The notes beneath the pieces are model-generated. The model was not told the origin of the DNA. It was given only the letters and a program-made list of their open reading frames with translations, and did no database searches. The translations under genes were made by a program, and so were the position numbers. Below are positions 25,909 to 50,989 of a stretch of DNA of 56,436 nt, piece after piece. How positions within the stretch are numbered: position 1 is the stretch's first letter; every line of letters starts with the position of its first letter. The DNA comes from Cellvibrionales bacterium UBA7375 (GTDB taxonomy: Bacteria; Pseudomonadota; Gammaproteobacteria; Pseudomonadales; Porticoccaceae), in the NCBI GenBank assembly GCA_949487135.1, contig CATAJQ010000038.1:1-56436 (forward strand). The letters are read 5' to 3'.

Positions 25909-25922
25909 ATTGATTAATCAAT
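25909..25922. promoter_or_regulatory. Perfect 14-bp palindrome upstream of sugar symporter
   Basis: ATTGATTAATCAAT is a perfect dyad lying 75 bp before the symporter ATG, in a 120-bp gap. A smaller inverted repeat, GGTAA-N6-TTACC, follows at about 25949. Its position suits an operator for a dimeric repressor or activator, but no second copy was found in the window. Confidence 0.4.
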
Positions 25923-25997
25923 AAGGTGTTAAACTCTTTATTTTATGCGGTAACCAAAATTACCTTAAATTAATAATAACATTAGAAGAAATGGATT

Positions 25998-27419: not shown

Positions 27420-27445
27420 TATTAATCAGTTATTTGCAGAAACAA

Positions 27446-27471
27446 AAAAGCCGTATGTTAAGACGGCTTTT
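27446..27471. terminator. Bidirectional terminator between symporter and phosphorylase genes
   Basis: The stem AAAAGCCGT (27446-27454) pairs with ACGGCTTTT (27463-27471) around an 8-base loop, with A and T tracts on both sides. It separates two convergent genes. Confidence 0.85.
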
Positions 27472-27498
27472 ATTTGGCTTAGATTATTAAAACTAAGC

Positions 27499-30963: not shown

Positions 30964-31397
30964 TTGAAACCTAACTAATTATCGTGTTTTAAGTAAGTAC
31001 TGGAATCCTATTAAGTGGACACCCGCTAGCAAATCCTTTTGTATCATTTAGACTTTTAATGCTTTTAACGTTATTTGGTAAAACTCAAAAGGCGGCTATT
31101 CTAAGGGGACTATTTTAATTTCGCTAGCTTATCGGTCGACAAAATAGGTCTTTTTGCCGAAAATTGATAAAAAATCAGTAAATTTATCGAATATTTGCTA
31201 ACAAATTAGTTAAAAAGAAAAATAAAGGCCTACAAATATTAATTTTGCCGATTGTAGCTCTTAATCTTGGCCTGTAGGATTCTGCATCATGGCAATTTAG
31301 GCAAAAAAGCAACTTAATTTCAAAGTTACACTCTAATAATTACGCTAGAATTAATGTAAACTACTCACTTAAAACGAGCCCAGAGGATTACTCATCA
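30964..31397. other. Divergent intergenic region, phosphorylase / GH17 pair
   Basis: A 434-bp AT-rich stretch with no coding sequence. It must carry promoters for the phosphorylase (minus) and the GH17 pair (plus). An AAACTC near 31082 weakly resembles the GAACTC core of the shared element, and CCTACA (31230 region) is mirrored by TGTAGG (31275 region). Neither is strong. A GAGGA ribosome binding site lies ten bases before the GH17 start. Confidence 0.35.
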
Positions 31398-32288: not shown

Positions 32289-32293
32289 AAATT

Positions 32294-33205
32294 ATGACTA
32301 ATAATAAATTACCTTTTGCGAAAGCAATTTGCTATTCGGGGTACCGCGATGGACAGAGTCCAGACAACGGTGAATTTCCAACCTATGATCAGGTCAAACA
32401 GGATCTATTGATTCTTAAAGATGACTGGAAATCACTGCGACTCTACGGCAGTGATCAACATTCAAAAACTATTTTGCGTGTTATCGACAATGAGCAGTTA
32501 CCCTTTGATGTAATGCTCGGCGCTTACGTAACCGCTGAGGTATGCAATGAAAATTGTCCCTGGGGAGGACTTTATTCCGAGGAGCAATTGCATAGTAATA
32601 AACGCCACAATGAACAACAAATCGTAGAATTGATCGAGCTTGCCAACCAATACCCAACCGTTATTAGCTCAGTCTCTATCGGCAACGAAGCGGCTGTTGC
32701 TTGGACTGATCACTTAGTACCCACGGAAAGTCTAATTAAATATGCACAACAGACCCGCTCACAGGTTACGCAACCTGTTACATTCTGCGAAAACTACGTG
32801 CCTTGGCTTGAAAATCTAAGACCACTAGCCGATGAGCTTGATGTGATTTCTATACATACTTATCCTGTATGGGAATTCAAAAGTATTGATGAGGGCTTAG
32901 CCTACACTATCGCCAACTATCAAGCGGTTAAGGACGCCTACCCAGATAAACAAATTATCATTACTGAAGCTGGTTGGGCGACCAACTCCAATGGTCGCGG
33001 TATTGAAAGCCATAATGTGAATGAAAATTTTCAGCAGCAGTATTTCCACGAGCTAATGAACTGGGCCCAAGAACAACAGGTTCTGGTTTATTTCTTTGAA
33101 GCCTTTGATGAAAACTGGAAAGGTTCCCCAGATCCGCTAGAGCCTGAAAAGCACTGGGGTATTTATAATGCCGACCGAACACCTAAACTGGTAATGCAGG
33201 GATAA
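32294..33205 (+). CDS. Small cytoplasmic GH17 family enzyme (2)
   Basis: From ATG 32294 the protein has 303 residues. It starts at the typical GH17 first strand (AICYSGYRDGQ) and carries E132 in SIGNEAAV and E225 in ITEAGWA. No signal peptide is seen. I rejected the longer frame from 32252 because it overlaps the preceding GH17 gene and begins with a Lys-rich stretch unlike the family. The segment resembles the barrel of the GH17 lipoprotein at 22667-24505 (YGGYRE / YSGYRD, HTYP), more than its immediate neighbour. It may be the intracellular counterpart. Confidence 0.85.
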   Translation: MTNNKLPFAKAICYSGYRDGQSPDNGEFPTYDQVKQDLLILKDDWKSLRLYGSDQHSKTILRVIDNEQLPFDVMLGAYVTAEVCNENCPWGGLYSEEQLHSNKRHNEQQIVELIELANQYPTVISSVSIGNEAAVAWTDHLVPTESLIKYAQQTRSQVTQPVTFCENYVPWLENLRPLADELDVISIHTYPVWEFKSIDEGLAYTIANYQAVKDAYPDKQIIITEAGWATNSNGRGIESHNVNENFQQQYFHELMNWAQEQQVLVYFFEAFDENWKGSPDPLEPEKHWGIYNADRTPKLVMQG

Positions 33206-37000: not shown

Positions 37001-40000
37001 TCTCAAGTCTAGATAAACTACCCCCTAGATCTATCAAGCCATAATTAACATATACATCATTAAAGTTAATCACTTCACCAATATTTAAATTATTATCGAC
37101 ACCTGTGCCTATATTTCCTGTCGCCATTTCGTCCGTTGGCATCAACTTTATCCAGTTGAGGTTAAGGCCGCCACCTGGCGCTTCAAAACGAAGTACATAG
37201 TCGCCTGAATCAAGTGAAATAACACCACCAGGCGCGGTTTGCCAAAGCTGCCAACCCCCTGTATTTGGCACTAAAGCCGAATCAACTAAATTACCATCAA
37301 TTAGAAGATTAACCCCTGAATTACTACCTGATTGACTAGCCATACGATAACTCACACTGTAGTTACTGGCTTCAGCAACCTGAATTTCATATTCCATCCA
37401 ATCACCGGCATCAATCCAACCCACATTTAGACCGCCACCCTCATCACTAGTAGGCTGTGTTCCCACTTCACCATCAGGTAGTTCTACAGCGCTAGAAAAA
37501 GTTTCAGCTTCAATCATTATTGCATCACTTTGTTCGCAATCAACGGTATCGGTTGCATTAAAGGTTAGCCAATTAATATTGAAAGAGTCACCCAGCGCTT
37601 CAAGTCTCAGGGTCAGGTTACCTTCCGCAAGTTCATAAAAACGAGTAAAGGTTACCCAACTCGAATAGCCGCCGGTTGGAGGGATTTTGAAACTATCTAC
37701 CGTCTGGCTGTCAAATTTGAGTTTAAAACCCTCACTACCAGGATCGCTGGCGACTCGATATTCAGCTCGATAACAGCTGGTTTCTGATAGTTCTACCGCA
37801 TATTCAATAAAGTCATCGGCATCGAAATTACCCACATGCGGACTCAAATCGCTATCAGAGGCAGTATCAATGCTAACAGTGCCATATGGCGCGGCAATAA
37901 CTTTGGTCCAGTTTTCTGCTTCAACTTTTAGATCATCTGGCTCTGGTGGAACCCACTCACAACCAGCACCATAATTTGAGCCGCCTTCACCGCCAGGTTG
38001 AATATCCAAATTCATCAGATTCATATTACCGCCACTGACAACCCTCAGTTTTTGTACGCCAGCTTTGAGGGTAACGTCGACCGTCATATCCTGCCAAATA
38101 TCCCAACTGGTTGTATCTGGCGTCGATAGAACTGGCGTTAGTTTTTCACAATCAGACTCAAGGCTAATAAAACCACCACCCCAGGATGCTGTGCGCAGTG
38201 TTACGGTATAGTCTCCGGCCTCAGCCACATCTATAGTGTATTCAAGCCACTCATCAGGTTCGAAAAAACCAACCGAGGTATAATCTTCGGAGCTAGACTG
38301 AACATCTACCGCTTCAGAAGCGCGATAGGCCTCACCAAGATTGACAGCGCCGGTATCATGGTACGAGATACCCTCGCCACCAATATCATAATCAGAAGCC
38401 CAAAGGCGACCGTTAGGTGCCAAGCTGTCTAGAGGGTGATCGCCATTACCGCTTGTTGGCACTGGCATTGGACTTCCGAAAAATGGACCGGGTGGCGGGC
38501 CCGGAATTTCTGGTAGTGGATCTACAGAATCTGTATAGACTGTTACCATACGGTAAGAGTTTGCTCCACCGCGCTTTATGCCAGCACCAATCGAGCCTGT
38601 TAAACCATATCCACTTCCATCAGTAGCAGGGATAGTACCTATTAAATGACCGGACCCAGACCACGGACGAAGAGCAATATCACCGGTCGGCAACTCAAGC
38701 CACATGAACTTTTGCTTAACACCAATTTTTCTCGCTGAGGCAACAAGTGGCTGACCAAAGTCGCTAACAGATAAATATCTACCGTTATCAGCCAACAAGG
38801 CAATATGACCATCATCACCGGCATCCACTACAATAAATTCATCTGAACCAACACCGTCGTAGCTTCGATCACTCGCGACAACCCTGTCGCGATCATCCAG
38901 CCCAAGGAATGCTTTATCCGCGCGACTATACAAACCGATTTTTTGATCTATAGGTATGTTCGGAGAGCCACTGGCGGGCCAGAGAGTACTGGAATTATCT
39001 GGACGCCATGCTGTGCCATAGATATCTAAATACCCTTTAAAACGATCTAATTCGAGATCATTGGCGCCTAACCACTCAAACTGAGTCCAGCCAATTTGGT
39101 GACTTTCAAATGCATCGTTAAAGCCATTTTTGGTATCACCAGGCCAAAATTCTGTACATAGCAATGCAGGATAATTATCACTGACTTTAAAGGCTTCTAT
39201 GGTGCTCTCAACCTGCGGCAGGTTCCAATAAGCGTGGAACGCAAATCCAGCGTTATCCCATATTCCCGGGAATTCTTCCGCTAGCCCATCGGCTCCTTTA
39301 ATGGCTTGGGAACCGCCAAAAAAAGACATAAAGGATCCCAGTAAAACCATGGTATCTGGCGCCACTTCACGAATTTTCTGGTACATCTGTGCCTGTTTTT
39401 CCCAGTCTTCATCAGTCCAAGAGGCATTAATACCTGCCACTGGTTCGTTGTGTGCTTCATAGATAACATGCGTCTCATCTTTGTATTTGGCACCATAAAG
39501 GTCCCAAAAAGCCAGCACCTTGTCCATGCTATGAATAGCGCCATTTTCACCGTTATTACCAATGGTAATAATCAAATACATTTTCGCTTCACGGGTAATT
39601 GCGACAAGGTGATCTGCCAAAGCTTCATTGATGCCTACAGGGTCCGGGTTTTGTTCTGCATCACCCTCAAGATAAACATGAAGCGTATTAAAGCCATAAT
39701 TGCTTACCATATTTTGCAATTGCGATAGGCTAATATCTGAAATATCTAATAAATTATTTCTGTCGTAAGGATCACCACCATCGGTAGATAGACTAACGCC
39801 ACGAAGTAAAGTGCCCATATCAGAGCGAATAACGTTGTAACCTAGAGAGTCATCAATATAGGGTCTTCCGCGAACAGTAATATCGTCCAGTGATTTATCA
39901 GGAATTTCACCGAAGGGTATATAGGCATTAGAGTCTTGATCGCTGGTATCTACAATATTCTCTGGAGCATCCAAGAATTCATTGTCAGTTTCAACGCCAC

Positions 40001-40094
40001 AACTGACCGTAAATAATATTAAAAAGCTTAGAGCGAAAGCCTTCAACGGAGCTCTATAATTGATTACAGCAAAATTTAGAACATTGATTCGCAT
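34071..40094 (-). CDS. Giant multimodular GH5-family lipoprotein with several CBM6-like domains
   Basis: A 2007-residue lipoprotein (lipobox TVSC, C32). Residues ~90-370 form a GH5 barrel: acid/base E217 in YEAHNEPV and nucleophile E315 in LLCTEFWPGD. A beta-trefoil-like region (~390-530) follows. Three CBM6-like modules then come (~560-700, ~715-845, ~855-990), marked by EAENW/EAETF starts and NLNWI/NINWL ends. Next are a beta-sandwich (~1010-1150), two near-identical domains of unknown family (~1160-1515), a fourth CBM6 (~1525-1660), a third diverged copy of the unknown domain (~1680-1835), and a C-terminal cohesin-like beta-sandwich. It is surface- or periplasm-anchored and probably acts on beta-glucan. 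The last gene of its run, it has its own upstream element. Confidence 0.87.
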   Translation of the reverse strand: MRINVLNFAVINYRAPLKAFALSFLILFTVSCGVETDNEFLDAPENIVDTSDQDSNAYIPFGEIPDKSLDDITVRGRPYIDDSLGYNVIRSDMGTLLRGVSLSTDGGDPYDRNNLLDISDISLSQLQNMVSNYGFNTLHVYLEGDAEQNPDPVGINEALADHLVAITREAKMYLIITIGNNGENGAIHSMDKVLAFWDLYGAKYKDETHVIYEAHNEPVAGINASWTDEDWEKQAQMYQKIREVAPDTMVLLGSFMSFFGGSQAIKGADGLAEEFPGIWDNAGFAFHAYWNLPQVESTIEAFKVSDNYPALLCTEFWPGDTKNGFNDAFESHQIGWTQFEWLGANDLELDRFKGYLDIYGTAWRPDNSSTLWPASGSPNIPIDQKIGLYSRADKAFLGLDDRDRVVASDRSYDGVGSDEFIVVDAGDDGHIALLADNGRYLSVSDFGQPLVASARKIGVKQKFMWLELPTGDIALRPWSGSGHLIGTIPATDGSGYGLTGSIGAGIKRGGANSYRMVTVYTDSVDPLPEIPGPPPGPFFGSPMPVPTSGNGDHPLDSLAPNGRLWASDYDIGGEGISYHDTGAVNLGEAYRASEAVDVQSSSEDYTSVGFFEPDEWLEYTIDVAEAGDYTVTLRTASWGGGFISLESDCEKLTPVLSTPDTTSWDIWQDMTVDVTLKAGVQKLRVVSGGNMNLMNLDIQPGGEGGSNYGAGCEWVPPEPDDLKVEAENWTKVIAAPYGTVSIDTASDSDLSPHVGNFDADDFIEYAVELSETSCYRAEYRVASDPGSEGFKLKFDSQTVDSFKIPPTGGYSSWVTFTRFYELAEGNLTLRLEALGDSFNINWLTFNATDTVDCEQSDAIMIEAETFSSAVELPDGEVGTQPTSDEGGGLNVGWIDAGDWMEYEIQVAEASNYSVSYRMASQSGSNSGVNLLIDGNLVDSALVPNTGGWQLWQTAPGGVISLDSGDYVLRFEAPGGGLNLNWIKLMPTDEMATGNIGTGVDNNLNIGEVINFNDVYVNYGLIDLGGSLSRLETDPMDSTNTVVSSLKGAVAQSGVKIASGQVNYPLSSTLTRLSMRVYSPSIGTSVRLKLEDSSNSAHSVETEAVTTVANQWEILVFEFSNPVAGTAALNTDYSFDTVSVFFDYQSSGSGETYYFDDITMLGQVVAPITLTQEMLVGEWRLAPEADTTGVGWESGNLGWWKVDAAVISERACLFDDLFVFAEDGSFSNQMGGSTWIEPWQGMDPEACGVPVAPHDGSASATYELDTEAGTITLTGVGAHLGLAKVISGGDELTSPNNAPQSIVYKVMESTENSMTVEVAYSAGFWTFKLVTADYVAPVPADPVEEPPSNPIDLTQEMLVGEWRLAPEADTTGVGWESGNLGWWKVDAAVISDRACLFDDLFVFAEDGSFSNQMGESTWIEPWQGMDPEACGAPVAPHDGSASATYELDTEAGTITLTGVGAHLGLAKVISGGDELTSPSNAPQSIVYKVMESTENSLTVEVDYSAGFWTFKLVTADYVAPEPEDPVQSGDLRIEAENWTRVITLPDGEVGTEGTQDTGGGSNAGWIDLGDWMEYDFNVANAGNYELDIRAASQGGSSPGFKVLLDGVWIDQIAVPNTAAWQSWQTITGRVIYLDQGQHTLRLEAASGGANLNWIEFVETNAQADPLPEAVPSITASDLVGSWKLAPEARALDVVSGGGGWSNSAGDVNNRSCLFDDLFIFSDIGEFSNQMDGQTWVEPWQGVASEQCGSPVAPHNGGRFGYVFDESAMTITLNGTGAHLGIPKVINGAEITNPSEAPSSIVYDIIDSSATTMTLKIDIPQGYWIFKYVAVSDDSGSDDTDTGDTPDEPVVNNDPTVTPINFSATSTPVGMEFIAVDCVLSIDASSPCNFPSTVEAAQAVYVSSQEINDQGQLVVTVSMEADITATTGAGILVHFDGTELVLTDQSANDYGAMIIGPNQQADTGNADNNSETDSVINIGWVSFAGNWPGQSPVALVTLTFEVVGSSENQ
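35542..36587 (-). repeat. Near-identical tandem domain duplication inside the GH5 gene
   Basis: Two copies of ~497 bp, 35542-36038 and 36091-36587, are aligned at a constant offset of 549 bp (183 codons) without indels. The proteins differ at about six or seven positions (for example SERAC/SDRAC, MGGSTW/MGESTW, CGVPV/CGAPV). The short linkers between them are not identical. A third, clearly diverged copy of the same domain is encoded at about 34605-35088. Confidence 0.9.
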
Positions 40095-40222
40095 TGGAAT
40101 ACCTTTAATTTTTTGTCGCGATAGCTTCGCAATCTTTTATCTTTTAATGCGCATCCATGCACAAATTTTTATGAATATCCCTCTTAACATGACACTAATA
40201 TATAAAGTTCAAGTCTAGCAAT

Positions 40223-40253
40223 CGTCCTAATAACGTATTCGAACTCTTTTAAG
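40223..40253 (-). promoter_or_regulatory. Shared upstream element, copy before the GH5 gene
   Basis: On the plus strand it reads CGTCCTAATAACG, then GAACTC at 40241-40246, then TTTTAAG. A TATATA hexamer on the minus strand (40199-40204) lies 36 bp from GAACTC. Its counterpart before the GH16-like gene has the same CGTCC, GAACTC and the same 36-bp spacing. It is about 130-160 bp upstream of the GH5 start. Likely an activator site next to a promoter. Confidence 0.55.
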
Positions 40254-40347
40254 TCGTCAAAAAAACCTTTAGATACGATTAAAGGGCAATTAATATTAAA
40301 GAATATTGAATTAGGGGTTTAAAGCTAAATATGTTTATAAAAAAAAT

Positions 40348-41361
40348 CTATCGATTAATTTTTTTAAGCAACAATGACCTTATTTTTCTACTCAAAGACT
40401 CATTAATTGAACCAAGTGACCCTCTAGCTTGCTCTGGTATATGAGAATGACTATCTTTATCAGCATCAAAAATATAATAATCAAACATTCCTCGCCAAAT
40501 CTTTTTTTGCTCTACAGGCAAGTCACGAATACTCATAAGAGCATAAAGCAATGTATTCGCCGGTGTATCCATATAATTTGGCGACTGACGCCACCAATAG
40601 TTAACCAGAATATTAAGCGCATCAAGCCCCTCAACATGATGCCACCACATACTTGGAATATAGATCCCATCGCCCGGCTCAAGAGTAGTCACTTGGGCAG
40701 ACTCTAGTGCATGCTTGAAATTAGGAAATTGTTTATAGTCTGGGTTTTTAAAGTCAATCAAGCTAATTGGTTGGCCGCCCGGAGCCCAATCAATTGGCCC
40801 TGGGTACAAATTAGCTAACTGGTCTGGCGGGAAAAGGGTAAAACGACGACGGCCCACCGCGCAACAGGCAATATTATCTGGCAAATCATAATGCGCTGCA
40901 ATTCGACTGCGATTACCTAACCATACACTCACCAATGGGTTATCGGCATCCAAATTAAGAGGATTTTCCTCTCGAAAACCAGAAAACCAACGATCAACAA
41001 AGGTTGATGCCATGTAAAAAGTAGGCGGCTTTTCATCTTCTGCACAGTTGTAAATATTATCGAGCAAATCATTTAGATCGGCTTTAACAGATTGATAATT
41101 AAAGCCAGAAAAATCCTTATTATAAAAAATTCTGCCCTCTATATCAGGGTCACCTATGGATGCTGTAACCGGTATATTTTGATAAAAACTTTTCAAATAA
41201 TCGCCAGCATCAGGCGCTGATTTGAGACCCATTTTTACTAAGGGCCAGTCTGTAACTAGACCCCTAATAACCATTGGCTCCAGGGATGTGTATACATCCT
41301 TGGGCACTCGTCCTGGTTCGGTACAACCAATTTCTTTTATCGTTTTATCTATTGAGATCAT
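40348..41361 (-). CDS. Cupin-like (JmjC/Cupin_8) protein, partner of TonB receptor 2
   Basis: A 337-residue paralogue of the protein at 11054-12061. The metal ligands are H157-x-D159 in AHYDLPDN and H241 (or H242) in WWHHVEGLD; GRRRFTLFPPDQLANLYPGP matches the family. It overlaps the upstream SapC gene by four bases (ATGA), so the two are translationally coupled. The same pairing is scattered in the first cassette, where the cupin is on the other strand. Probable Fe(II)/2-oxoglutarate enzyme with unknown substrate. Confidence 0.83.
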   Translation of the reverse strand: MISIDKTIKEIGCTEPGRVPKDVYTSLEPMVIRGLVTDWPLVKMGLKSAPDAGDYLKSFYQNIPVTASIGDPDIEGRIFYNKDFSGFNYQSVKADLNDLLDNIYNCAEDEKPPTFYMASTFVDRWFSGFREENPLNLDADNPLVSVWLGNRSRIAAHYDLPDNIACCAVGRRRFTLFPPDQLANLYPGPIDWAPGGQPISLIDFKNPDYKQFPNFKHALESAQVTTLEPGDGIYIPSMWWHHVEGLDALNILVNYWWRQSPNYMDTPANTLLYALMSIRDLPVEQKKIWRGMFDYYIFDADKDSHSHIPEQARGSLGSINESLSRKIRSLLLKKINR

Positions 41362-42071
41362 AAACGTTTATTTTTCCGCTCTATAAGCGACCTAAAATTA
41401 GACATTGAGGCAATCACCATATACGCCGCCTGCAAATAGCCAGTAGTCATTAACTCTGATATAGCATCATAAGAAAGTCCATTCAGCGTATCTTCATTAA
41501 TAGTATAAAAACCTTGTAACTGATTTTTCGTACCATCATCCAATTCAACTTTTAGCGTAAAACTTTCAATTAGATCGTACTTTAGCATTAATTCGATAAA
41601 TTCTTTGCTTTGTTGCTGCCCTTGATGAATAGCGTCTAGTATTGAACTAATTCTCTGCAAATATTCTGAGTGGCCGCCCTGTTCAAGAAATACTGCCTCA
41701 CCCTCATCAGAGTTAACTCTTGGACTATCTGCATCAATATAAATTAGACGTTGCTTTTCACCACTTTGAGTCCGTTGATTACCAATAAAAAAAGGCTGCC
41801 GCTCAAACATTAAGGGTGTGTAAGCTGCATCCCAACTATCGCCATCTAAAAAGAGGTTTTCATTTTCCTCAAAGCCAAATAACGCGGCCGAATAGAATTT
41901 GCCGGTTTCAGAATCTTTGCAAAAACAGATCGGGAAGTTTGTTTGAATATCCCTATATTCAAAAGGAAATGTCACCAATGATGGGATACTATCTCCAAGA
42001 TCTGCGGATCTTTTGGTAATTATTTTGAGATCTTTATGATTAATATTATCTAAAAGCACATGATTAGCCAT
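41358..42071 (-). CDS. SapC family protein, partner of TonB receptor 2
   Basis: A 237-residue SapC homologue. It shares with the copy at 13583-14323 the segments ITKRSADLGDSI, FPFEYRDIQTNFPICF, ALFGFEENENLFLDG, PLMFERQPFFIGNQ and GFYTINEDTL. AGGAG lies five bases before the ATG. It follows TonB receptor 2 after a hairpin (42150-42187) and is coupled to the cupin gene. Function unknown. Confidence 0.85.
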   Translation of the reverse strand: MANHVLLDNINHKDLKIITKRSADLGDSIPSLVTFPFEYRDIQTNFPICFCKDSETGKFYSAALFGFEENENLFLDGDSWDAAYTPLMFERQPFFIGNQRTQSGEKQRLIYIDADSPRVNSDEGEAVFLEQGGHSEYLQRISSILDAIHQGQQQSKEFIELMLKYDLIESFTLKVELDDGTKNQLQGFYTINEDTLNGLSYDAISELMTTGYLQAAYMVIASMSNFRSLIERKNKRL

Positions 42072-42149
42072 GCCGACTCCTGAATTACTTGGGGGTAATT
42101 ATTTTATCTTTTCAATATACCCTTGGATATTGATAATTGGAATGCCATA

Positions 42150-42187
42150 AAGAAGCCCTTAACTAATTAAAGCTAAGGGCTTCTTTA
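42150..42187. terminator. Hairpin terminator between TonB receptor 2 and SapC
   Basis: AAAGAAGCCCTTA (42150-42162) pairs with TAAGGGCTTCTTT (42175-42187), a 13-bp stem with a 12-base loop and T tail. It lies 25 bp after the receptor stop. Its stem resembles the one at 16020-16050 after receptor 1, in the same position. Confidence 0.82.
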
Positions 42188-42212
42188 CAAAACCATAAAA
42201 ATTAATTAGATA

Positions 42213-45200
42213 CTAAAAACTATATCGAGCACCTAGATTATAACGCGCGTGTCCAACAGAGTACTCTCTGACCTGATACTTCGAACGACCATGAACACGT
42301 TGATGCTCTTCTGTTAAGTTAATTCCCTCAATAAAAAATGAGAAATTATCGTTAAATTCATAGCTCGCATTGAAATCTAATTGAGAATATTCTTCCACAA
42401 AACGCGGATCTCGGCCCGGTGATGCTAGAAATTCGTCACGCCAGTTGAAAGCAAATCGTATTTGGAAGCCACCCTTATCATAAAAGGCAACCAAATTTGC
42501 TGTATCACTCATTCCAGGAACAACCCACTGCTCCTCATTAAGATTAATATCATATTCAAGGTTACCGTTAACCACAGTATAGTTTGCCTGAAAACCAAAG
42601 CCCGACTCACCAAACGTATGCTGAGCCATTAACTCGAGACCTTTAACATTTGTTTCGCGCTGATTAATTGGGATAGTGACATCAAATATCGCCACTGGAT
42701 CACCCTCAAGACCTGTTTGGGTAACCTCAACCTCATCACCTTGACCGGATAATTCTACACCTGGCTGCCCTACATAGTTTTCAGCATAATATTCATTTAA
42801 ATCGCCCGCATCATAGTCAAAACGAGGGTCACCACCGGTTAAATCATCAATCGCTTGATTGTATAAATCACCCTCAATCGGTGTGTATAAATTTTTAAAT
42901 AATGGTTGATCTTCAAAGGTGGCACTTATAATGAAATTGTCTACATCTTTGGACCATAAGCCAGCAGAAACATAGCTTCCCTCGGCGTAATACCACTCTA
43001 GGGAAAGATCTAGGTTAGTTGCTTCCATTGGGAGAAGCTGAGGGTTTCCTCTACGACCGCCACCACCATCGGCACCCAAGTAATCGATAATTAACGCACC
43101 TTTCAGGTCGTTATAAACTGGACGTGTTACCGTCAAGCTATAGGATGCACGCAGGATTACGTCATCCAGCACCTCCATATCGAAATCAAGACTTGGCAAA
43201 AACATACTGTAGGAACCATCAATTTCTGAGAAGCCTCTAATGGTATTACCATCTTCATCTTGCTGCTGATATAGATTAAATCGATTATCTAAAATACTCC
43301 ACTCAACACGATCATACAGTGGCACCAACGCCTCTGAGTGAACCTCGGTTTTTTCATAGCGCATACCATAGAACAGATTAACTGGACGATCGAGAAGATC
43401 TCCAACCCAATGGGTTTGAACAAAAATTGAATCAGAAGTTTCTGTAGTTACTTCGTCCAAATCAAAGTTATAGGATGGGCAGAAGCCGGTCAAACAGGGT
43501 CCGCCATCACCATCAACATCGCCATGAGTACCCGCCTGAAGAAGCTCTTCACTTCTGTCAATCAGCTCTTGAAAATCCCAGGTGAAAAATTCAGTAACCT
43601 GACGAGGATCATCACTTCCTTCAAGGGTGTCGTATACATCTGCAATAGAGTCAACAGTCAGTAAGTCACTGATATCACCGGGATCACCCACGCCACTCCA
43701 TGTATTACGAGAAATACCCTTAGATTGACCTCTGTTAGTTACCTCAATGCGACCAACGCCAAAATCTATGCTGTGTCCTTCATCAAACAGATATTCAGCG
43801 TCAAACTGAAGCTGCTGAACTTCCATAATGTTATTAAAACTGCCAAATGAACTACCAGATACCTGCATATCTTCAGCATTTACCTGATCGATTCTGGAAA
43901 TTTGATTATAAGAATTTCGCTCACCAAGCTGTATCTCTAATACTGGCATACCATCCCTACTAAAGTAGCCAGACGTAGTTATACGATTAAGCGCAGCAAC
44001 TGCCATTGAGCCACCAGAACCGTGCTTACTATTTGGCCTCGCCTCACCCGTTGAATCATGATAGTCCATATTTAAAGTTAGATTATCATTCACTAGCCAT
44101 TCTAAATTAAAGCCAGCAGATTTATTTTCATCAACAGTAGCAAAAAGCCCAACACCCTGAAGATTATCTTGAGCACAACCTACTTGACGATAGACGGTAG
44201 GCGACCAAATATTGCCTTCTTGAATCCACTCGCTTTCCCTTGTACTACAACCAGGATCAAACCATGCTGATAAATCTTGGTGCTGGGTATTCATTTCATT
44301 TTTGGCGTAGGTGTAGTCAATAGTACCAGTAATATTTTCAACTGGCCTCCACTGCAAAGTCAGCTGGCCATTGACACGCTCACGGCGAAAATCATCAAGG
44401 TTATATTGAATATTAGTTGGGATAGCATAAATACCATCTGAAACTTCTTCAGGGAAGTTGATAGCTGTTGGATCGCCAACGGGTATTGAACCCCATTCTG
44501 CATCATCAACGTTGTTATCCATATCGTCCAAGGTAACAAAATTTCGCCCCATAAAATCTTGAGTAGATACTGACTGAGAGCCACCATCACGAACTTGCTT
44601 GCTAGCAGATATAGAAACGCCGATGGTGTCGTCAGCAAAGGTTTGACTAAAAAGTCCCACAATTTCAGGATTCACAGAATTGCCGCGTCTTGTACCTGGA
44701 TCATAGACCCCCTTGGTACTTATAACTGCGCGAAGACCAGGCTTTTCAAGCGGCTTGCTGGTTATTACATTAACTACCGCACCAATACCACCAGAAGCCA
44801 CATTGGCTCGACCTGATTTATACACCTCAACTGCGGAAACACCCTCAGATGCAATATTGCCAAAATCAAAAGATCTCCCGCCATTAGTAGGCATCTGACG
44901 GCCATTAAAGCTGACAATATTAAAGTCTGGACCAAAACCACGAACTGTGATCTTTGAGCCCTCACCGCGGTCACGCTCAATAGCAACCCCTGTAATTCGC
45001 TGCAGAGACTCAGCAAGGTTGGTATCCGGAAATTTTCCTATATCTTCAGCTGATATTCCATCAACAATACCTTTGGCATCTCGCTTAATATCCATAGAGC
45101 GCTGCAAGCTGGCCCGAATACCCGTCACTACAACTTCTTCGATATTATCATCGGGACCCTCTAGCACTTCTTCTTGAGAATTAGCACTGTTAGCAACAAT

Positions 45201-45254
45201 CATGGCAATACTTCCGGCTAATAATTGTCTTTTGAATTTAGTCTCGTACTTCAT
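42213..45254 (-). CDS. TonB-dependent outer-membrane receptor (2), beta-glucan locus
   Basis: A 1013-residue receptor with a signal peptide (ending ANS), a TonB-box-like IEEVVVTG, a plug with ISAEDIGKFPDTNLAESLQRITG and VRGFGPDFNIVSFNGRQMP, and a barrel ending LGARYSF. It follows the GH16-like gene by 49 bp with AGGGA eight bases before its ATG. It is flanked by glucanases, so it probably imports laminari-oligosaccharides. It is a diverged paralogue of the receptor at 16087-19188. Confidence 0.94.
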   Translation of the reverse strand: MKYETKFKRQLLAGSIAMIVANSANSQEEVLEGPDDNIEEVVVTGIRASLQRSMDIKRDAKGIVDGISAEDIGKFPDTNLAESLQRITGVAIERDRGEGSKITVRGFGPDFNIVSFNGRQMPTNGGRSFDFGNIASEGVSAVEVYKSGRANVASGGIGAVVNVITSKPLEKPGLRAVISTKGVYDPGTRRGNSVNPEIVGLFSQTFADDTIGVSISASKQVRDGGSQSVSTQDFMGRNFVTLDDMDNNVDDAEWGSIPVGDPTAINFPEEVSDGIYAIPTNIQYNLDDFRRERVNGQLTLQWRPVENITGTIDYTYAKNEMNTQHQDLSAWFDPGCSTRESEWIQEGNIWSPTVYRQVGCAQDNLQGVGLFATVDENKSAGFNLEWLVNDNLTLNMDYHDSTGEARPNSKHGSGGSMAVAALNRITTSGYFSRDGMPVLEIQLGERNSYNQISRIDQVNAEDMQVSGSSFGSFNNIMEVQQLQFDAEYLFDEGHSIDFGVGRIEVTNRGQSKGISRNTWSGVGDPGDISDLLTVDSIADVYDTLEGSDDPRQVTEFFTWDFQELIDRSEELLQAGTHGDVDGDGGPCLTGFCPSYNFDLDEVTTETSDSIFVQTHWVGDLLDRPVNLFYGMRYEKTEVHSEALVPLYDRVEWSILDNRFNLYQQQDEDGNTIRGFSEIDGSYSMFLPSLDFDMEVLDDVILRASYSLTVTRPVYNDLKGALIIDYLGADGGGGRRGNPQLLPMEATNLDLSLEWYYAEGSYVSAGLWSKDVDNFIISATFEDQPLFKNLYTPIEGDLYNQAIDDLTGGDPRFDYDAGDLNEYYAENYVGQPGVELSGQGDEVEVTQTGLEGDPVAIFDVTIPINQRETNVKGLELMAQHTFGESGFGFQANYTVVNGNLEYDINLNEEQWVVPGMSDTANLVAFYDKGGFQIRFAFNWRDEFLASPGRDPRFVEEYSQLDFNASYEFNDNFSFFIEGINLTEEHQRVHGRSKYQVREYSVGHARYNLGARYSF

Positions 45255-45303
45255 ATATTTATCCCTGCTCGAGCTACTTCTAATTATTTTGTTTTTTCTA
45301 AAT

Positions 45304-47772
45304 CTACTGTCTGGTCAATCTGATCCAGTTAATATTCATAGGTCCACCGATAAAATCAAAGCGCATGATTTGCTCACCCGCGATAAGATCGATTACGGCG
45401 CTTTGAGTTACCCAGTTCTGCCAGTCTCCCGTAGAATCCATGGCTTGTGTATCAACTAGAACATCACCTATCCTATTTTCAAAGCCCTCAGAGTCCCATA
45501 AACCTGCAAGTCGATATTCAATAAGATACTCGCCCGTCGATGGAACATTGACGGTGTACTCAATAAAATCACCTTGATCAATCCAGCCAATATTTTGGCC
45601 ACCGCCTACATCGCCGGTATCCTCTAGATCTATTCCGCTCAAGACGTCATAGTCTTCAGCCTCGATAAAAACTTCGCCAAGTGGCGGCTGAATTTGAAGC
45701 CAATTTAAGTTTTGATCCTCGTCAACAAAGTCAATTTGCATGGTATATACCCCAGCGGCCAACTCGAACTCTGGCGAAGTTATGGTGACCCAATTTTGCC
45801 AATCACCTGTGTCAGGGATTGACTGAGCATGAATAAGCCCTCCATCCAGCGACATTTCAAAACCATTACTTCCACCCTTACTGGCTACACGGTAATCAAC
45901 CGTGTAGGGTCCTATGGCTGGAGCGTTGAAGGTATAGCTTACATAGTCTCTAGCGCTTACGAATCCAACATTTTGACCACCGCCCTCATCCGTTGTTTCT
46001 TCGACCCCGATCCCCTCTTGAGTAATGAAATCTTCTGCCTCAATACGAATTGGGTCTGCTTTTGGTGCCGCAGCAGTTTGCAAGGCCAATGGACCTAAAA
46101 GACAACCCTCAGAGTTAATACAATCGAGGGAAATATTATCTAATTGCAAATGTGCACTGCCGTCGACTCCAATCGTCATTAGTGACGTAAGATTATCGGG
46201 ATCAAGGGATAACTGTGCTGATGGGTTGTTTAGAAAATCTTCTACAGGAATGCTGTATCTCTGCCAATCATCAAGAGTAAGTTCATCTAATGACCATGAG
46301 ACTTGTCCCACCGCGGCATCATTAGTACTTTCAGCACCGGATTTCATTTTTATGGTGATAATTTCAGTATTTGTTGCAGAACTATCGATGAGAAGGTCAA
46401 AATTCAAAGTAATATTGTGGCCATTTAAAACTGCGTTCTCTGCTACAATACTCATCTCCGCAGTTCCAGCGGGATTAGTGAATTCTAGAACTAGATTATG
46501 CTCATCATCAAGGGTAATCCAAGTAATATCAGCGTCATTATCACTTAGTCCTTCTAGTGGAAATTCATCCTCATGATAATGCCAGCTCAAAGGGTGCAAC
46601 TCGCTTATAAGAGTGTCCGTTGAAGGATCTATATATCCGTCAGCAAGGATCGTTGTTTTTTCCAGTCCGACAGATTCTATTCGATCTGAAGCTGAACGAG
46701 AGATCTTTGGCTTTTCTTTGGAGGCACATTCTTCAACACTAGGTTCGATAACGGGGTTACACGTCCATACTTCTATGTAATCTACTAGCATTTGAACAGG
46801 TGAATCATCAGCAGCGGCAGAAACATCAAATACAATCTGCATAGGCTGATTAAAGGGCCCATCTGTATCGGCAACTATATCGTCACCAATCTGGTTATAT
46901 CCCCATAAATTGAGTGTATCTACTGTGTAGACATGAGTGCCATCAATATACCAACGTATTTTTTTCTCACCCCACTCAATGGCATAGGTATGAAACTCAT
47001 CGGAAGCGGTATCAAGAATATCCTGATTCATAATGACTCCACTCAGGCGATCTAACCCATAGTGCGCTCCCGCAGTCATTTTACCCGCTTCTGAATGCAT
47101 TAAACTTAGCGCGTTATCACCATCATAGTTGTCGGATACTGGTATTAATTTAAAGGCAGATATTACATCAACACCCGCAGCCGTTCTTACGCCGGCTTCG
47201 ATACGGCCCTTGTTAATTGGCCGAATGCCTTTAACAGTGGAAGATTGACCATTAATTGCATTAATTTTGAGGCTACCGCCAGCAACGGAAACATCATCAC
47301 CAACCCACTTGCTCGAATCAAATGCATCAGCAGTGTTAAAGTTATCACTCCAAACCAATTCCCAGCCATATTCATCCAAACGTTCAAAATCATTAACAAC
47401 ATTAATAGTAAGCGTCGCAGTAGATGTGGAGCCAGTAACCGTATTAGTTGCTAAATAGTTTACTGAATCAGTGCCAAAGAAATCTAAATTAGGTGTGTAG
47501 GTGAATGTACCATCAGAATTAAATGCAATGGTTCCATTCTGCGTGGATTGCCCCTCTGCCAGAGAAAAACTTAGGTTATCTCCCATATCATTGGTGCTTA
47601 CATCACCAATCACTTCACCACCATCTTCTTTCGTTTCTACAATATCGCCAACGGCAAATATATCGCGCACAACGTTTTGATCTGCATCACCACCGCCGCC
47701 GTCACCACCACAGGCTGTTAGTGAAAATATAAATGGCACAGTTAGCGCGATAAGCACTTTTCTAGCAAACAT
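45304..47772 (-). CDS. GH16-fold lipoprotein, probably non-catalytic, with two CBM6-like domains
   Basis: An 822-residue lipoprotein (lipobox LTAC, C21). Domains: a cadherin-like region (~35-126), a GH16/laminarinase fold (~135-340; WELVWSDNFN, KGRIEAGVR, FHTYAIEWGEKKIRWYIDG, VDYIEVW), a galactose-binding-like beta-sandwich (~395-555) and two CBM6-like domains (~580-695 and ~700-822). The GH16 active-site motif E-x-D-x-x-E is missing. The matching segment is G218-D-N-A-L-S-L224 (counted back from HYG at 237-239), with D219, A221 and L224 at the three positions. It probably binds rather than cuts glucan. It heads the run toward TonB receptor 2. Confidence 0.85.
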   Translation of the reverse strand: MFARKVLIALTVPFIFSLTACGGDGGGGDADQNVVRDIFAVGDIVETKEDGGEVIGDVSTNDMGDNLSFSLAEGQSTQNGTIAFNSDGTFTYTPNLDFFGTDSVNYLATNTVTGSTSTATLTINVVNDFERLDEYGWELVWSDNFNTADAFDSSKWVGDDVSVAGGSLKINAINGQSSTVKGIRPINKGRIEAGVRTAAGVDVISAFKLIPVSDNYDGDNALSLMHSEAGKMTAGAHYGLDRLSGVIMNQDILDTASDEFHTYAIEWGEKKIRWYIDGTHVYTVDTLNLWGYNQIGDDIVADTDGPFNQPMQIVFDVSAAADDSPVQMLVDYIEVWTCNPVIEPSVEECASKEKPKISRSASDRIESVGLEKTTILADGYIDPSTDTLISELHPLSWHYHEDEFPLEGLSDNDADITWITLDDEHNLVLEFTNPAGTAEMSIVAENAVLNGHNITLNFDLLIDSSATNTEIITIKMKSGAESTNDAAVGQVSWSLDELTLDDWQRYSIPVEDFLNNPSAQLSLDPDNLTSLMTIGVDGSAHLQLDNISLDCINSEGCLLGPLALQTAAAPKADPIRIEAEDFITQEGIGVEETTDEGGGQNVGFVSARDYVSYTFNAPAIGPYTVDYRVASKGGSNGFEMSLDGGLIHAQSIPDTGDWQNWVTITSPEFELAAGVYTMQIDFVDEDQNLNWLQIQPPLGEVFIEAEDYDVLSGIDLEDTGDVGGGQNIGWIDQGDFIEYTVNVPSTGEYLIEYRLAGLWDSEGFENRIGDVLVDTQAMDSTGDWQNWVTQSAVIDLIAGEQIMRFDFIGGPMNINWIRLTRQ

Positions 47773-48181
47773 TTAAAACCTCTTTTCTTCTTTATTTTTG
47801 TTTTGCCCTACAAGCGGCATGCTTTTAACATCTATTACTGTAAATTGACCCTAAACAGAAACTTGTTGCGCCTATAAAGCTGATCTGATTCTAAATTACA
47901 GATTGGCCTTATTTATTGCGTCCGACTAAAGCACTCGAACTCAAATTTTACAAAAAAACACTAATATAATTAAATTGTGAAAGCAGTGACCAGTAATAGA
48001 ACATTTTCTAGAGCAAACCTTTTATCTGTTATCTCAGCTTATCGCATATATCAGTCACTTCAAAGAGTCTGATATTTATAGAGTTTTTTTCATGTAAAAT
48101 AAATTAAAGAGATGCTCAATAAGTTTAAAGTCAGTAGTGAATTGTTAATCTTTATAAAACTTTACAACAAGACAAATTTAA
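47773..48181. other. Divergent intergenic region, GH16-like / AraC regulator
   Basis: A 409-bp non-coding stretch. It contains the shared upstream element (47919-47951) and its -10-like hexamer for the GH16-like gene. The rest is AT-rich; no clear promoter for the regulator is recognised. A binding site for the regulator itself is plausible here. Confidence 0.45.
47919..47951 (-). promoter_or_regulatory. Shared upstream element, copy before the GH16-like gene
   Basis: On the plus strand: CGTCCGACTAAAGC, then GAACTC at 47937-47942, then a TTTTAC block. On the minus strand the hexamer TGTAAT (47895-47900) lies 36 bp from GAACTC and 18 bp from CGTCC, exactly as in the GH5 copy. The element is about 150-180 bp before the start codon. 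Confidence 0.6.
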
Positions 48182-49339
48182 ATGAATAACCTTCAATTTG
48201 AATCAGTATTATTTAATTTTCACGACGTCATTCTTATGATGATTTCGTTACAGTGCCTATTTTTTGCTCTGCTACTATGGCTAACAAACAGCAAACAAGT
48301 TAAGAGTACATTTTTTCTCGCTGCTTTTCTATTTAGCCACTCACTGGTTCCAATTAACGAATTAATGATGTGGGGTGCTGAATTTAAAGTACATGCTCGG
48401 CAACAACTTTCTTCCTTGTATTTTGCTCCCGGCATTGCCTACTATATTGACGGACCCTTATTGTTTTTATGTATAAAATCACTGGTTTTTCGTGATTTTA
48501 CTTTAAAGCGAAGTGATCTTTTACACTTGTTGCCACTCACAATTTACTGTTTATTTATAAGCTTTAGCTTCTATAACAATCCCTTTGATGTTCGCCTAGA
48601 AATGCTTAATAGTGAATCATTTGTTTATAGTACCAATTTTGTAACGATTGAGTTTTTAAGTAAATTAACTCGCTTCTCCTACGTTATTGCGTGCTTTATC
48701 CTTATTAGTAGATATGGGTTAAGGCTTCAAGAGAAGCACTCCAATATGGAAAAGGCACACCTATCGTGGCTAAGGGCATTAGTTGCTGGCTTTACCTTAG
48801 TAATGCTATTTGAGCTAATCTTGTCTGCATCAAAAATCTTTACTCATTATCACTATATATATTTTTATATGGGTCTCACTCGATATTACACCACTTTCTT
48901 CTTGATCAATTTGTTGGTATTTACGGCTATTAGATTCTTCGGTATGTTCGAACAGGTTAATGAAGAGGAGTCGCCCAAGAAGCCAGCTGATGAATATATA
49001 ATTAACCCCGAAGAAGCAGAATCTATTGATACTCGTATTAAGAAAGATCAGCTTTATATGGATCCAGATATAACCTTGGATAGCTTGGCAGACACACTTT
49101 TAATTATGCCCAGAGATTTATCAATGATTATCAATAGACATTTTGGGGCTAATTTTTATACTTTTATCAACAGCTACAGGATAGAAGAGGCGAAAAAAAT
49201 GCTGAAGGATTCAGCAAAGAAAGATATTACCATTACGGAAATATATCTTGCAGTAGGCTTTAATAGTAAATCTGTTTTTTATACTTTCTTTAAAAAGCTT
49301 GAAGGCATGACCCCTACAAAATTCCGTCAACTCAATTAG
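48182..49339 (+). CDS. Membrane-anchored AraC-family transcriptional regulator
   Basis: A 385-residue protein. Residues ~1-240 contain about seven hydrophobic helices (for example DVILMMISLQCLFFALLLW, TFFLINLLVFTAIRFFGMF). Residues ~280-385 form the AraC DNA-binding domain with two helix-turn-helix units: ITLDSLADTLLIMPRDLSMI and ITITEIYLAVGFNSKSVFYTFF. Such proteins sense signals at the membrane and bind DNA directly. Placed between the GH16-like and GH30 genes, both with the shared element, it is the best candidate regulator of the locus. No metal or sugar-binding motif is seen. Confidence 0.85.
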   Translation: MNNLQFESVLFNFHDVILMMISLQCLFFALLLWLTNSKQVKSTFFLAAFLFSHSLVPINELMMWGAEFKVHARQQLSSLYFAPGIAYYIDGPLLFLCIKSLVFRDFTLKRSDLLHLLPLTIYCLFISFSFYNNPFDVRLEMLNSESFVYSTNFVTIEFLSKLTRFSYVIACFILISRYGLRLQEKHSNMEKAHLSWLRALVAGFTLVMLFELILSASKIFTHYHYIYFYMGLTRYYTTFFLINLLVFTAIRFFGMFEQVNEEESPKKPADEYIINPEEAESIDTRIKKDQLYMDPDITLDSLADTLLIMPRDLSMIINRHFGANFYTFINSYRIEEAKKMLKDSAKKDITITEIYLAVGFNSKSVFYTFFKKLEGMTPTKFRQLN

Positions 49340-49369
49340 ATCGTATCGGACCTATGGCCCGATACGATC
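49339..49369. terminator. Inverted repeat between AraC regulator and GH30 gene
   Basis: An 11-bp perfect stem (49339-49349 with 49359-49369), loop 9 bases, begins at the last base of the regulator's stop codon and ends 8 bp before the GH30 stop. There is no long T tract, but position between convergent genes suggests a terminator. Confidence 0.6.
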
Positions 49370-49377
49370 ATTAAGTA

Positions 49378-50829
49378 TTAGTAGACTAACGTTTGCATGC
49401 TGCGTGCCGGGATGGTTAAAGTAACCTGCTGCATATCTGCAAGGAAATGGTAGTCGATAGCATTGTCAGTTTCATTCATAACTACTGTAGCAATTTGGTT
49501 ATCTGTATTTATGAACGAGGTCGCTAGCAAAACACTACGGCTACTGCTGGTGCTAATTCTTTTAGCCTCAGGACGAATAAACTTTGAGAAATGCCCTATA
49601 TAGTAATAAGTCGGGGTATAAATTAACTCACCCGTGCGAGTATCCGCATGAATGGGCGCAAAACAAAAGTTACTAACATGGTTAGGTCCGCCAGTGTGAT
49701 CAAGCAGCAAATTCCAATCAGTCCAACCCACAGTGCCAATATTAAAATCCTTAATCATAGAGCGGGCATAACGCTCTGCGTTTGGCCAGTATTGATAGCG
49801 ATCTTCTCTAAAGCCTTCCACTGTGCCCTCAGTAAATAGAAGCTCTATTTCTGGGTATGATTCCTTAACGGCAGCCAGATTGTCATGCATACTGTCACCA
49901 CCCGCCCAAGTTTCATACCAATGGTAGCCAACACCCCATACGTATTTATAGGCTTCTGGGTCATCCAAAATTACATTGGCGCGGTCAGTCAAAAGGTCAC
50001 GGTTGTGGTCCCAAACAACGATATTTTTATCGCCATAACCCGCCTCTTCCATTGCTGGACCAAGATGATTTTTTAAGAAATCTCTCTCTTCCTGAGCGGT
50101 ATAAATCATAGACTCCCAGCGCTGGGTAGCCATTGGCTCATTTTGGATTGAAATCCCCCAAATTGGCATGCCTTCACTTTCGTAGGCTTCAATAAATTTT
50201 GTATAGTATTTAGCCCAAGAGTCATAGTACTCGGGTAAAAGTTTGCCGCCGCGCAACATATTATTGTTGCTCTTCATAAATGCAGGCGCACTCCAAGGGC
50301 TTGCGTAAAGTAATAATTCACCACCCGCTGCTTCAGTGGCCCTTTTGATTAACGGAATACGAAATTGCTTATCTTTTTCAATAGTAAAGGTTTCTAGCGC
50401 CTTATCACCTTCATCGATATAAGTATGGCTGGCACTACCAAAATCAGTGCTATGAATTGTTGTTCGAGCAAGGGAATAACCAATACCCTTTTCGGTGTCA
50501 TAATAAGCCTCGAGGAACTCTTCCTGCTTGGCATTATCTAATTTTGCAAACACCTCAGCACTGGCATCAGTGAAAGAGCCACCAATACCGAGAAATTTTT
50601 GAAATTGCTTACTTGAGTTTACAAAAATTGATATTTCACCCTCTGTCGGCTGAACGCGCTCCCTAAATGGGTAGGTCCCCGTTTTGGTTAAGCGATGATC
50701 TGTATCTTTTGCTGTTGTATAGACAGTTAAGCTATCCCTAACAGAGTTTTTAGCAGTATTTTCTGCAACAGGCTGATCACAGCCAACAACAAAAATTGAG
50801 CATATAAGAATTATTAGATATTTATACAT
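49378..50829 (-). CDS. GH30 beta-glucosidase/beta-1,6-glucanase lipoprotein
   Basis: A 483-residue lipoprotein (lipobox VVGC, C17). The GH30 N-terminal motif FLGIGGSFTDASAEVF is clear; the acid/base is E231 in SIQNEPMA and the nucleophile E334 in LLFTEGTVEG. A C-terminal beta-sandwich follows. GH30 subfamilies 1 and 3 cut beta-1,6-glucosidic links, so it could remove the beta-1,6 branches of laminarin. It ends the glucan locus and carries a probable copy of the shared upstream element. Confidence 0.88.
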   Translation of the reverse strand: MYKYLIILICSIFVVGCDQPVAENTAKNSVRDSLTVYTTAKDTDHRLTKTGTYPFRERVQPTEGEISIFVNSSKQFQKFLGIGGSFTDASAEVFAKLDNAKQEEFLEAYYDTEKGIGYSLARTTIHSTDFGSASHTYIDEGDKALETFTIEKDKQFRIPLIKRATEAAGGELLLYASPWSAPAFMKSNNNMLRGGKLLPEYYDSWAKYYTKFIEAYESEGMPIWGISIQNEPMATQRWESMIYTAQEERDFLKNHLGPAMEEAGYGDKNIVVWDHNRDLLTDRANVILDDPEAYKYVWGVGYHWYETWAGGDSMHDNLAAVKESYPEIELLFTEGTVEGFREDRYQYWPNAERYARSMIKDFNIGTVGWTDWNLLLDHTGGPNHVSNFCFAPIHADTRTGELIYTPTYYYIGHFSKFIRPEAKRISTSSSRSVLLATSFINTDNQIATVVMNETDNAIDYHFLADMQQVTLTIPARSMQTLVY

Positions 50830-50924
50830 TTAGTTAAAATCCCAAATTTTTTAAATTTATATTAAACACAATAAGCGAAGTATGATTAACATTTTGCGAT
50901 TATATTATTATTGAAATTTAGGAT

Positions 50925-50950
50925 TGTTCGACTAAGCGAAACTCTTTTAC
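50925..50950 (-). promoter_or_regulatory. Shared upstream element, variant copy before the GH30 gene
   Basis: On the plus strand it reads TGTTCGACTAAGCG then AAACTC (50939-50944) then TTTTAC. Compared with the GH16-like copy, it keeps CGACTAA, AACTC and TTTTAC. The minus-strand -10-like TATAAT (50899-50904) is 34 bp from AAACTC. It is the shortest and most diverged of the three. Confidence 0.45.
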
Positions 50951-50989
50951 TAGAACTTCACAACCGTTTTTATTAATCCTGCAAGTAAA

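Follow-up and report, generated by a model that had tools for sequence, protein, structure and literature searches.

A palindromic element shared by predicted laminarin genes in Porticoccaceae: a probable operator of a membrane AraC-type regulator

The laminarin locus and its regulator

The DNA analysed here, contig CATAJQ010000038.1 (C38) of Cellvibrionales bacterium UBA7375 over its full 56,436 nucleotides (hereafter the window; assembly 1.44 Mb, completeness rated 92%), carries a set of predicted laminarin genes, three of which, encoding glycoside hydrolases (GH) of families GH16, GH5 and GH30, are preceded on the minus strand by a common palindromic element, together with a gene for a membrane AraC-type regulator, the proposed binder of that element. 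The GH16 gene (45304..47772, minus strand; GH16 and CBM6 modules by domain annotation) is the first gene of a receptor run continuing on the same strand with the TonB-dependent receptor TBDR2 (42213..45254), a SapC-family protein (41358..42071) and a cupin_8 protein (40348..41361), co-transcription of the last two being probable. The GH5 gene (34071..40094; GH5 with CBM6/CBM35 modules) and the GH30 gene (49378..50829; endo-1,6-beta-glucanase-like, with an NCBIfam match of 243.3 bits, below the cut-off of 700) are also on the minus strand, and the three genes start at 47772 (GH16), 40094 (GH5) and 50829 (GH30). The regulator gene (48182..49339, plus strand; assigned from Pfam domains and a structure model) is flanked by GH16 and GH30. 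The enzymes of the window match a laminarin utilisation locus (GH16, GH30, three GH17, GH149 and a TonB receptor), the GH149 beta-1,3-glucan phosphorylase reaching 1739.8 bits against a cut-off of 1150.

The C-terminal part of the regulator matched Pfam HTH_18 (5.7e-19) and HTH_AraC (7.6e-07), both above the gathering score, as in the double helix-turn-helix domain of the AraC/XylS family, and gave profile matches to AraC-type domains in the PDB as well as a Foldseek match to 3lsg_A (E 8e-4, TM-score 0.80 by target). The structure model (mean predicted local distance difference test score, pLDDT, 83.9; 37-sequence alignment) placed seven long helices within residues 13-255, followed by a linker (256-275, with confidence lowest at 265-271) and an AraC-type DNA-binding domain (276-385); from their length and hydrophobic sequence, the seven helices are predicted to span the membrane. 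GH16 and/or GH30 matches were present in many, not all, of the related regulator loci. Homology of the seven-helix domain to G-protein-coupled receptors was considered and not accepted (Foldseek E ~0.05-0.2, root-mean-square deviation 6-15), the weak resemblance probably reflecting a shared seven-helix topology only.

An inverted repeat upstream of GH16, GH5 and GH30

The shared element is a dyad in which the half-site GTYCGAnTAA faces its own reverse complement. Its length is 21 bp before the GH16-TBDR run (47920..47940, minus strand; plus strand GTCCGACTAAAGCACTCGAAC, minus strand GTTCGAGTGCTTTAGTCGGAC) and upstream of GH5 (40224..40244, minus strand; GTCCTAATAACGTATTCGAAC and GTTCGAATACGTTATTAGGAC, respectively), and 31 bp, about one helical turn more, upstream of GH30 (50926..50956, minus strand; GTTCGACTAAGCGAAACTCTTTTACTAGAAC and GTTCTAGTAAAAGAGTTTCGCTTAGTCGAAC, respectively). 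A half-site matrix trained solely on the 21-bp GH16 and GH5 sites of the SAR92 clade, which included the GH16 and GH5 sites of the window and not the GH30 site, ranked these three dyads at the top of the 56-kb window (27.6, 27.1 and 26.8 bits), the next place scoring 14.6. The 54 arms of 27 in-clade sites (distinct within each gene) all had G1, T2 and C4, and T8 was present in 53 of them, while position 3 was T (35) or C (19), position 5 was G (46) or T (8) and position 6 was mainly A (38). In one relative (G033; genomes, contigs and loci are given G, C and L numbers) both arms were altered symmetrically, to GTTCGTCTC...GAGACGGAC.

An earlier note on this DNA had described a related element of the form CGTCC...TAA...GAACTC...TTTTA before the GH16 and GH5 genes. 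Its letters and coordinates there were correct (CGTCC at 47919 and 40223; GAACTC at 47937-47942 and 40241-40246), and so was the perception of a shared element, but the core is the 21-bp inverted repeat: an asymmetric element including GAACTC and TTTTA was ruled out, as the outer TC and TTTTA are unconserved in more distant relatives (by eye) and the arms are symmetrical. For the variant proposed at GH30 the letters are likewise present, but in another register, AACTC (50940-50944) being spacer of the 31-bp dyad and TTTTAC (50945-50950) merely entering the right arm, whose end at 50956 lies beyond the coordinates that had been given; one of the GH30 strings is thus a true arm and the remainder coincidence.

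Promoter geometry

On the minus strand, a -10 hexamer lies 21 nt from the dyad edge at all three places: a conserved TAATTT for GH16 (47893..47898), TATATT for GH5 (40197..40202) and TATAAT for GH30 (50899..50904). The GH16 and GH5 hexamers named earlier do lie at identical distances from the element, but the register two bases downstream is preferred because it is the conserved one; the TATAAT proposed for GH30 (50904-50899) was confirmed as it stood, its distance to the dyad edge matching that of the other two. Within the SAR92 clade, TAnnnT occurred at offset 20 or 21 from the dyad edge in 24 of 25 distinct downstream flanks, which come from related genomes and are not independent, against 1.9 on average, and never more than 7, in composition shuffles; the sole exception was the GH16 flank of G058. 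This offset was about equal for the 21-bp and the 31-32-bp dyads, so that the promoter-proximal half-site appears fixed relative to the promoter while the distal half-site moves. A consensus scan detected no sigma-70 promoter at the three dyad places of the window. By sequence, the clade sites thus have the features of a class II-type activator site (abutting the -35 region, at a fixed distance from the -10, with a poor -35). The activator-type position proposed previously is borne out in that the dyad ends 21 nt before a conserved TAnnnT, at the -35 edge; the geometry would be of the activator type, and position alone would also be compatible with repression.

Conservation in relatives and co-occurrence with the regulator

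A search of 143 genomes with the regulator protein gave 12 genomes, the own genome included, with a full-length orthologue at an identity of at least ~60%; gene content and upstream regions were compared across the loci of the 11 others. Among relatives with close regulators, those that are named belong to SAR92/Porticoccaceae, HTCC2207 being one of them. The dyad was present before GH16 in 10 of the 12 genomes (spanning 22 bp in G024), with identical sequences in the four closest genomes, and before GH5 in the own genome (G000), G043, G035, G013, G024 and G019; no dyad was seen before GH5 in G016, G017, G033 and G058, where GH5 directly follows TBDR2. Before GH30 it was found in all 12, invariably spanning 31-32 bp. 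The element is conserved before orthologues of all three genes, and the test named earlier as able to refute it, absence upstream of orthologues, did not do so.

GH30 orthologues (67-93% identity to that of the window) were present in 18 clade genomes, own included; the GH30 of G134 (42% identity), also without a dyad, was excluded as too distant. All 12 regulator-bearing genomes had the dyad before GH30, and none of the six regulator-less ones did (G032, G042, G061, G071, G075 and G078). With a matrix built on all SAR92 sites, the GH30 upstream regions scored 16.4-25.4 bits with the regulator (n = 12) and at most 14.0 bits without it (n = 6); 11 of the 12 GH30 sites were part of that matrix, and the twelfth (G040), which was left out of it, scored 23.5 bits. 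Stretches of 15-20 kb around the six regulator-less GH30 genes contained no dyad above 14.0 bits, and for G061, G071, G075 and G078 there was no regulator match at E 0.001. Three of these genomes, G071, G078 and G075 (L194, L196 and L197, respectively), keep GH30-GH16-TBDR2-GH5 as a same-strand cluster without regulator or dyads, those of G071 and G078 additionally holding SapC and cupin, and G058 (regulator present) and G075 (regulator absent) belong to one genus. These sequence patterns suggest that the dyad tracks the regulator and not the target genes, and they lend comparative support to the earlier proposal that the AraC protein is the binder, as the dyad stands at the targets where the 48182-49339 regulator is present and is missing at the same genes where it is not. 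The three clusters offer a useful natural control.

Elsewhere in the window, a cassette at 12073-19188 comprises two tryptophan-halogenase-family genes, a SapC gene and a second TonB receptor; distant versions of it, plus a cupin gene, adjoin the regulator in G039 and G040.

Specificity and an unlinked operon

Expressed as a degenerate pattern in IUPAC code (GTYCKANTRMNKYANTMGRAC), the dyad matched the own 1.44-Mb genome at three places exactly, none at one mismatch, two at two and 27 at three mismatches; the exact-match class alone is special. At up to three mismatches there was no excess in the own genome (32 places against 68 for the reversed control) or in the window, where 14 of 100 shuffles reached the observed 3 matches. 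Over the 143 genomes, the exact pattern occurred in 8 of the 12 that have the regulator and in none of the 131 others, at 16 places (13 in the main locus, 3 upstream of an operon discussed below) compared with 3 for the reversed control. A strict 21-bp pattern was found in 10 of the 12 regulator genomes, a result mostly built in because the pattern derives from their sites; of the 131 other genomes it matched one (G126), inside an open reading frame (ORF).

The third exact place in the own genome, besides the two in the window, was GTTCGAGTACTTCACTCGAAC at C13:22368-22388, between a 444-aa ORF and a gene for a 411-aa transporter of the major facilitator superfamily (MFS), which is followed by a gene for a 787-aa GH3 enzyme. 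The pattern was found upstream of MFS-GH3 in G000, G013 and G035, and a slightly changed site (19.4 bits) in G043, so that the dyad preceded the operon in 4 of 4 genomes with the regulator; TAnnnT, a hexamer not used in the search, stood at offset 21 in all four promoters. The same operon in G005 (MFS 88%, GH3 84% identity) had no dyad, and that genome yielded no regulator orthologue, its matches being a contig-end fragment of 32% identity and one in the DNA-binding domain. In G033 an extra 32-bp dyad precedes another GH3 gene adjoining the locus. The single regulon of receptor run, GH5 and GH30 suggested by the earlier note is thus supported by sequence comparison and would extend to the unlinked MFS-GH3 operon.

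The window also holds, at 22667-33205, three GH17 genes, a GH2-C-like protein, an MFS_2 transporter and GH149, whose annotation places them in laminarin use. The GH149, GH17 and MFS_2 genes (22.7-33.2 kb) had no dyad scoring close to those of GH16, GH5 and GH30; they are not predicted members and are therefore probably under other control.

Paralogous regulators and other genera

Four of the 12 regulator genomes also hold a paralogue, found at 35-37% identity in the search of the 143 genomes. In G035, G013 and G043 this paralogue (34-35% identity) is followed by a gene for a large secreted protein (GH81-type by Pfam in G043), upstream of which the same half-site forms a 22-bp palindrome (GTTCGAGTTGAKCTACTCGAAC; one arm altered in G013), with TAnnnT at offset 21 in two of the three cases.

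Outside the clade, 34 loci whose regulators showed 44-61% identity (Colwellia, Pseudoalteromonas, Thalassotalea, Gilvimarinus, Microbulbifer, Cellvibrio, Teredinibacter and other Gammaproteobacteria) contained the half-site core GTYCGA 53 times in the 17,000 bp formed by the 500 bp upstream of each regulator, compared with 276 times in 477,735 bp elsewhere (5.4-fold, p = 1.5e-20). The motif was present upstream of the regulator in 25 of the 34 loci, while six letter-permuted motifs gave 0.1-1.2-fold; in 31 further loci with regulator identity below 44% the enrichment was 2.7-fold. For the whole dyad, 65 of 78 related loci were used, after removal of 13 belonging to the clade of the training sites (the 65 include L163, L165 and L168, from the same clade with paralogous regulators, which are outside the 34 loci behind the 5.4-fold value). 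Dyads of at least 18 bits (n = 55) were distributed as 19 in the 57 kb just upstream of the regulator, none inside it, 5 in the 32 kb just downstream and 31 in 793 kb elsewhere. Permuted-column matrices separated poorly at that threshold (30 loci observed against a mean of 9.2 and a maximum of 27); only the higher thresholds separated, with 14 against a mean of 1.0 (maximum 7) at 22 bits and 10 against a mean of 0.1 (maximum 1) at 24 bits.

Some arrangements recurred among these loci. Tandem dyads, of 21-22 bp and 26-27 bp with a gap of ~22 bp, stood upstream of the regulator or a GH16-type gene in L100, L111, L113, L114, L115, L116, L119 and L153 (and, by eye, L112), the second dyad, of 26-27 bp and often ~22 bp upstream of the first, occurring in Colwellia, Gilvimarinus, Microbulbifer and (by eye) Thalassotalea; its half-turn span misfits a simple model. 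Weaker dyads of 41-42 bp lay ~105-150 bp before the regulator start (L102/L106 at 7856-7896 in G016 and G017; G033 C50:14849-14890) and are possibly autoregulatory, with two extra helical turns. The Cellvibrio-type relatives L122, L126 and L138 carried GTTCGAGA-type half-sites upstream of the regulator, for example the 27-bp GTTCGAGAGCCGGAAAAATGCTCGAAC in L122, and L124, L127 and L128 had such half-sites with further changes; this variant is missed by the matrix because its position 8 is A.

Discussion

We consider it highly probable that the dyads are operators of the membrane AraC-type regulator encoded at 48182-49339, which as a dimer would activate a laminarin regulon from the -35 edge; binding by the regulator, activation rather than repression, and the ligand are what we infer from the observations above. 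Two cytoplasmic DNA-binding domains, each flexibly linked to its seven-helix membrane domain, would grip facing half-sites directly upstream of the promoter, and the membrane-anchored dimer would bring RNA polymerase, in a class II-like mode of activation, to promoters with a -10 and a poor -35. The flexibility of the linker would permit half-sites that span 21 bp or one helical turn more. The regulon would consist of the GH16-TBDR-SapC-cupin run, GH5, GH30 and the unlinked MFS and GH3 operon, which together would capture laminarin, a beta-1,3/1,6-glucan, cleave it, take it up and complete its hydrolysis. The signal would probably be a periplasmic laminari-oligosaccharide, read by the membrane domain.

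Several observations weigh against this reading. AraC-type domains classically cover ~17 bp each, and a 21-bp inverted repeat is short for two of them. The fetched stretches of G039 and G040 contained no GH16/TBDR2, and a different receptor run beside the regulator lacked the dyad; likewise, no clear dyad was found before the receptor gene neighbouring the fourth paralogue (G033 C50:1060-2214). The co-occurrence at GH30 was weaker with a stricter matrix built on GH16 and GH5 sites only, under which two of the six regulator-less promoters scored 12.6 and 16.0 and the 12 promoters with the regulator 10.8-24.4 (with against without, Mann-Whitney p = 0.008). The AraC proteins of G032 and G042 match the regulator in the DNA-binding domain only, the regulator-less genomes are partly incomplete drafts (G071 78%, G078 64%), so that a regulator may have gone unassembled, and the genomes are related, so that the counts are of non-independent events. 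A GH30-type pattern (GTTCKNNTN{13,14}TNANNCGRACA), drawn from 11 of the 12 GH30 sites with that of G040 alone being new, was rejected as a stand-alone genome-wide predictor, as it matched 23 of 143 genomes, 11 of them without the regulator (the matches in G003, G023 and G027 lying inside ORFs), and the reversed control did about equally well. In the other genera, 40 of the 65 loci had no dyad above the best of 20 shuffles, and for 29 dyads scanned in both directions, gene direction being unassigned, TAnnnT stood at offset 21 in 11, most Microbulbifer dyads lacking it there.

A 21-bp inverted repeat is more typical of LacI- or TetR-type dimers, and binding of the dyad by the AraC protein is a prediction. 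It is nevertheless quite improbable that the dyad is the operator of such a regulator (LacI, TetR or similar) encoded elsewhere, with the membrane AraC protein a mere neighbour: dyads were absent in 6 of 6 GH30 cases and 1 of 1 MFS-GH3 cases in which no regulator orthologue was found and the targets were retained, three of four paralogues, and relatives in other genera, have the same half-site next to them, and a spacing change of one turn suits flexibly linked domains. Were the membrane AraC protein the binder, it might still act as a repressor, blocking the -35 region until released by sugar, and a dyad reaching the -35 edge would by its position allow this. We regard repression as improbable, given that the consensus scan offered no sigma-70 promoter able to work unaided at the three places and that activators of the AraC family usually have sites that abut a weak -35; the G071, G075 and G078 clusters, lacking both regulator and dyad, fit a repressor or an activator alike. 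That the similarity is merely residual identity between related upstream regions, without function, is hardly credible. The identical GH16 dyads of the four closest genomes would fit that explanation, but the upstream regions otherwise diverge (by eye) while dyad and -10 remain in register, the arms change symmetrically in G033, and the same dyad stands before unrelated genes and on another contig. The operator of an activating membrane AraC dimer thus remains our preferred interpretation of the dyad.

More tentatively, in an extension that may well not hold throughout, the same code could apply family-wide: seven-helix membrane AraC proteins across SAR92, Microbulbifer, Cellvibrio, Colwellia and relatives would sense beta-glucan fragments outside the cytoplasm and clamp GTYCGA palindromes while anchored, with spacing set by helical turns (21/22, 31/32 and 41/42 bp), tandem dyads in some genera, and a single local sensor also controlling an unlinked transporter and GH3 operon.

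Relation to known systems and significance

In Escherichia coli, RhaS/RhaR and AraC act as activators at sites overlapping the -35 edge, RhaS/RhaR using inverted half-sites and AraC tolerating whole-turn changes in spacing; these proteins are soluble, with an N-terminal sugar-binding domain and half-sites of ~17 bp, whereas the protein described here has a predicted membrane domain and half-sites of ~10 bp that can lie within 21 bp. ToxR/CadC-type proteins are membrane-tethered transcription factors that sense outside the cytoplasm; they share the tethering with the window regulator but differ in transmembrane count and DNA-binding domain, having a single transmembrane helix and an N-terminal winged-helix domain. 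Closer in design are the membrane-bound AraC-type one-component regulators, with 6-7 transmembrane regions and an HTH_AraC domain, that were described in 2008 beside polysaccharide-degrading genes of Saccharophagus degradans 2-40 and proposed as sensors of extracellular polysaccharides; locus 2928, for example, is listed as adjacent to 2929, and Lam16B is locus 2927 (PMC2386152). The window regulator resembles them in architecture and gene neighbourhood, with seven predicted transmembrane helices N-terminal to the AraC domain and its gene beside polysaccharide-degradation genes; the binding site, regulon and promoter geometry proposed here for SAR92-type laminarin genes have no counterpart in the passages of that paper on these regulators (PMC2386152). 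Operators with inverted half-sites and spacers varying by about whole helical turns have been described for CytR, a LacI-family anti-activator that works with CRP (PMC3454398); it belongs to a different protein family, and the dyads here stand at a fixed distance to the -10. In the open-licence literature of PubMed Central, no operator, binding site or regulon was found for membrane AraC regulators or for the SAR92 laminarin pathway.

The protein class is thus known, while the operator, its geometry and the regulon are newly proposed from sequence. Laminarin is one of the major storage sugars of algae, and coastal seawater is rich in SAR92 bacteria (PMC11345257, PMC10746254). One local sensor probably switches on laminarin use. 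For the membrane-bound AraC regulators whose genes were reported next to polysaccharide genes in 2008 (PMC2386152), the dyad offers a candidate DNA target, and an operator at a fixed promoter distance makes the regulon directly testable; it would also allow the laminarin response to be predicted from sequence in uncultivated genomes.

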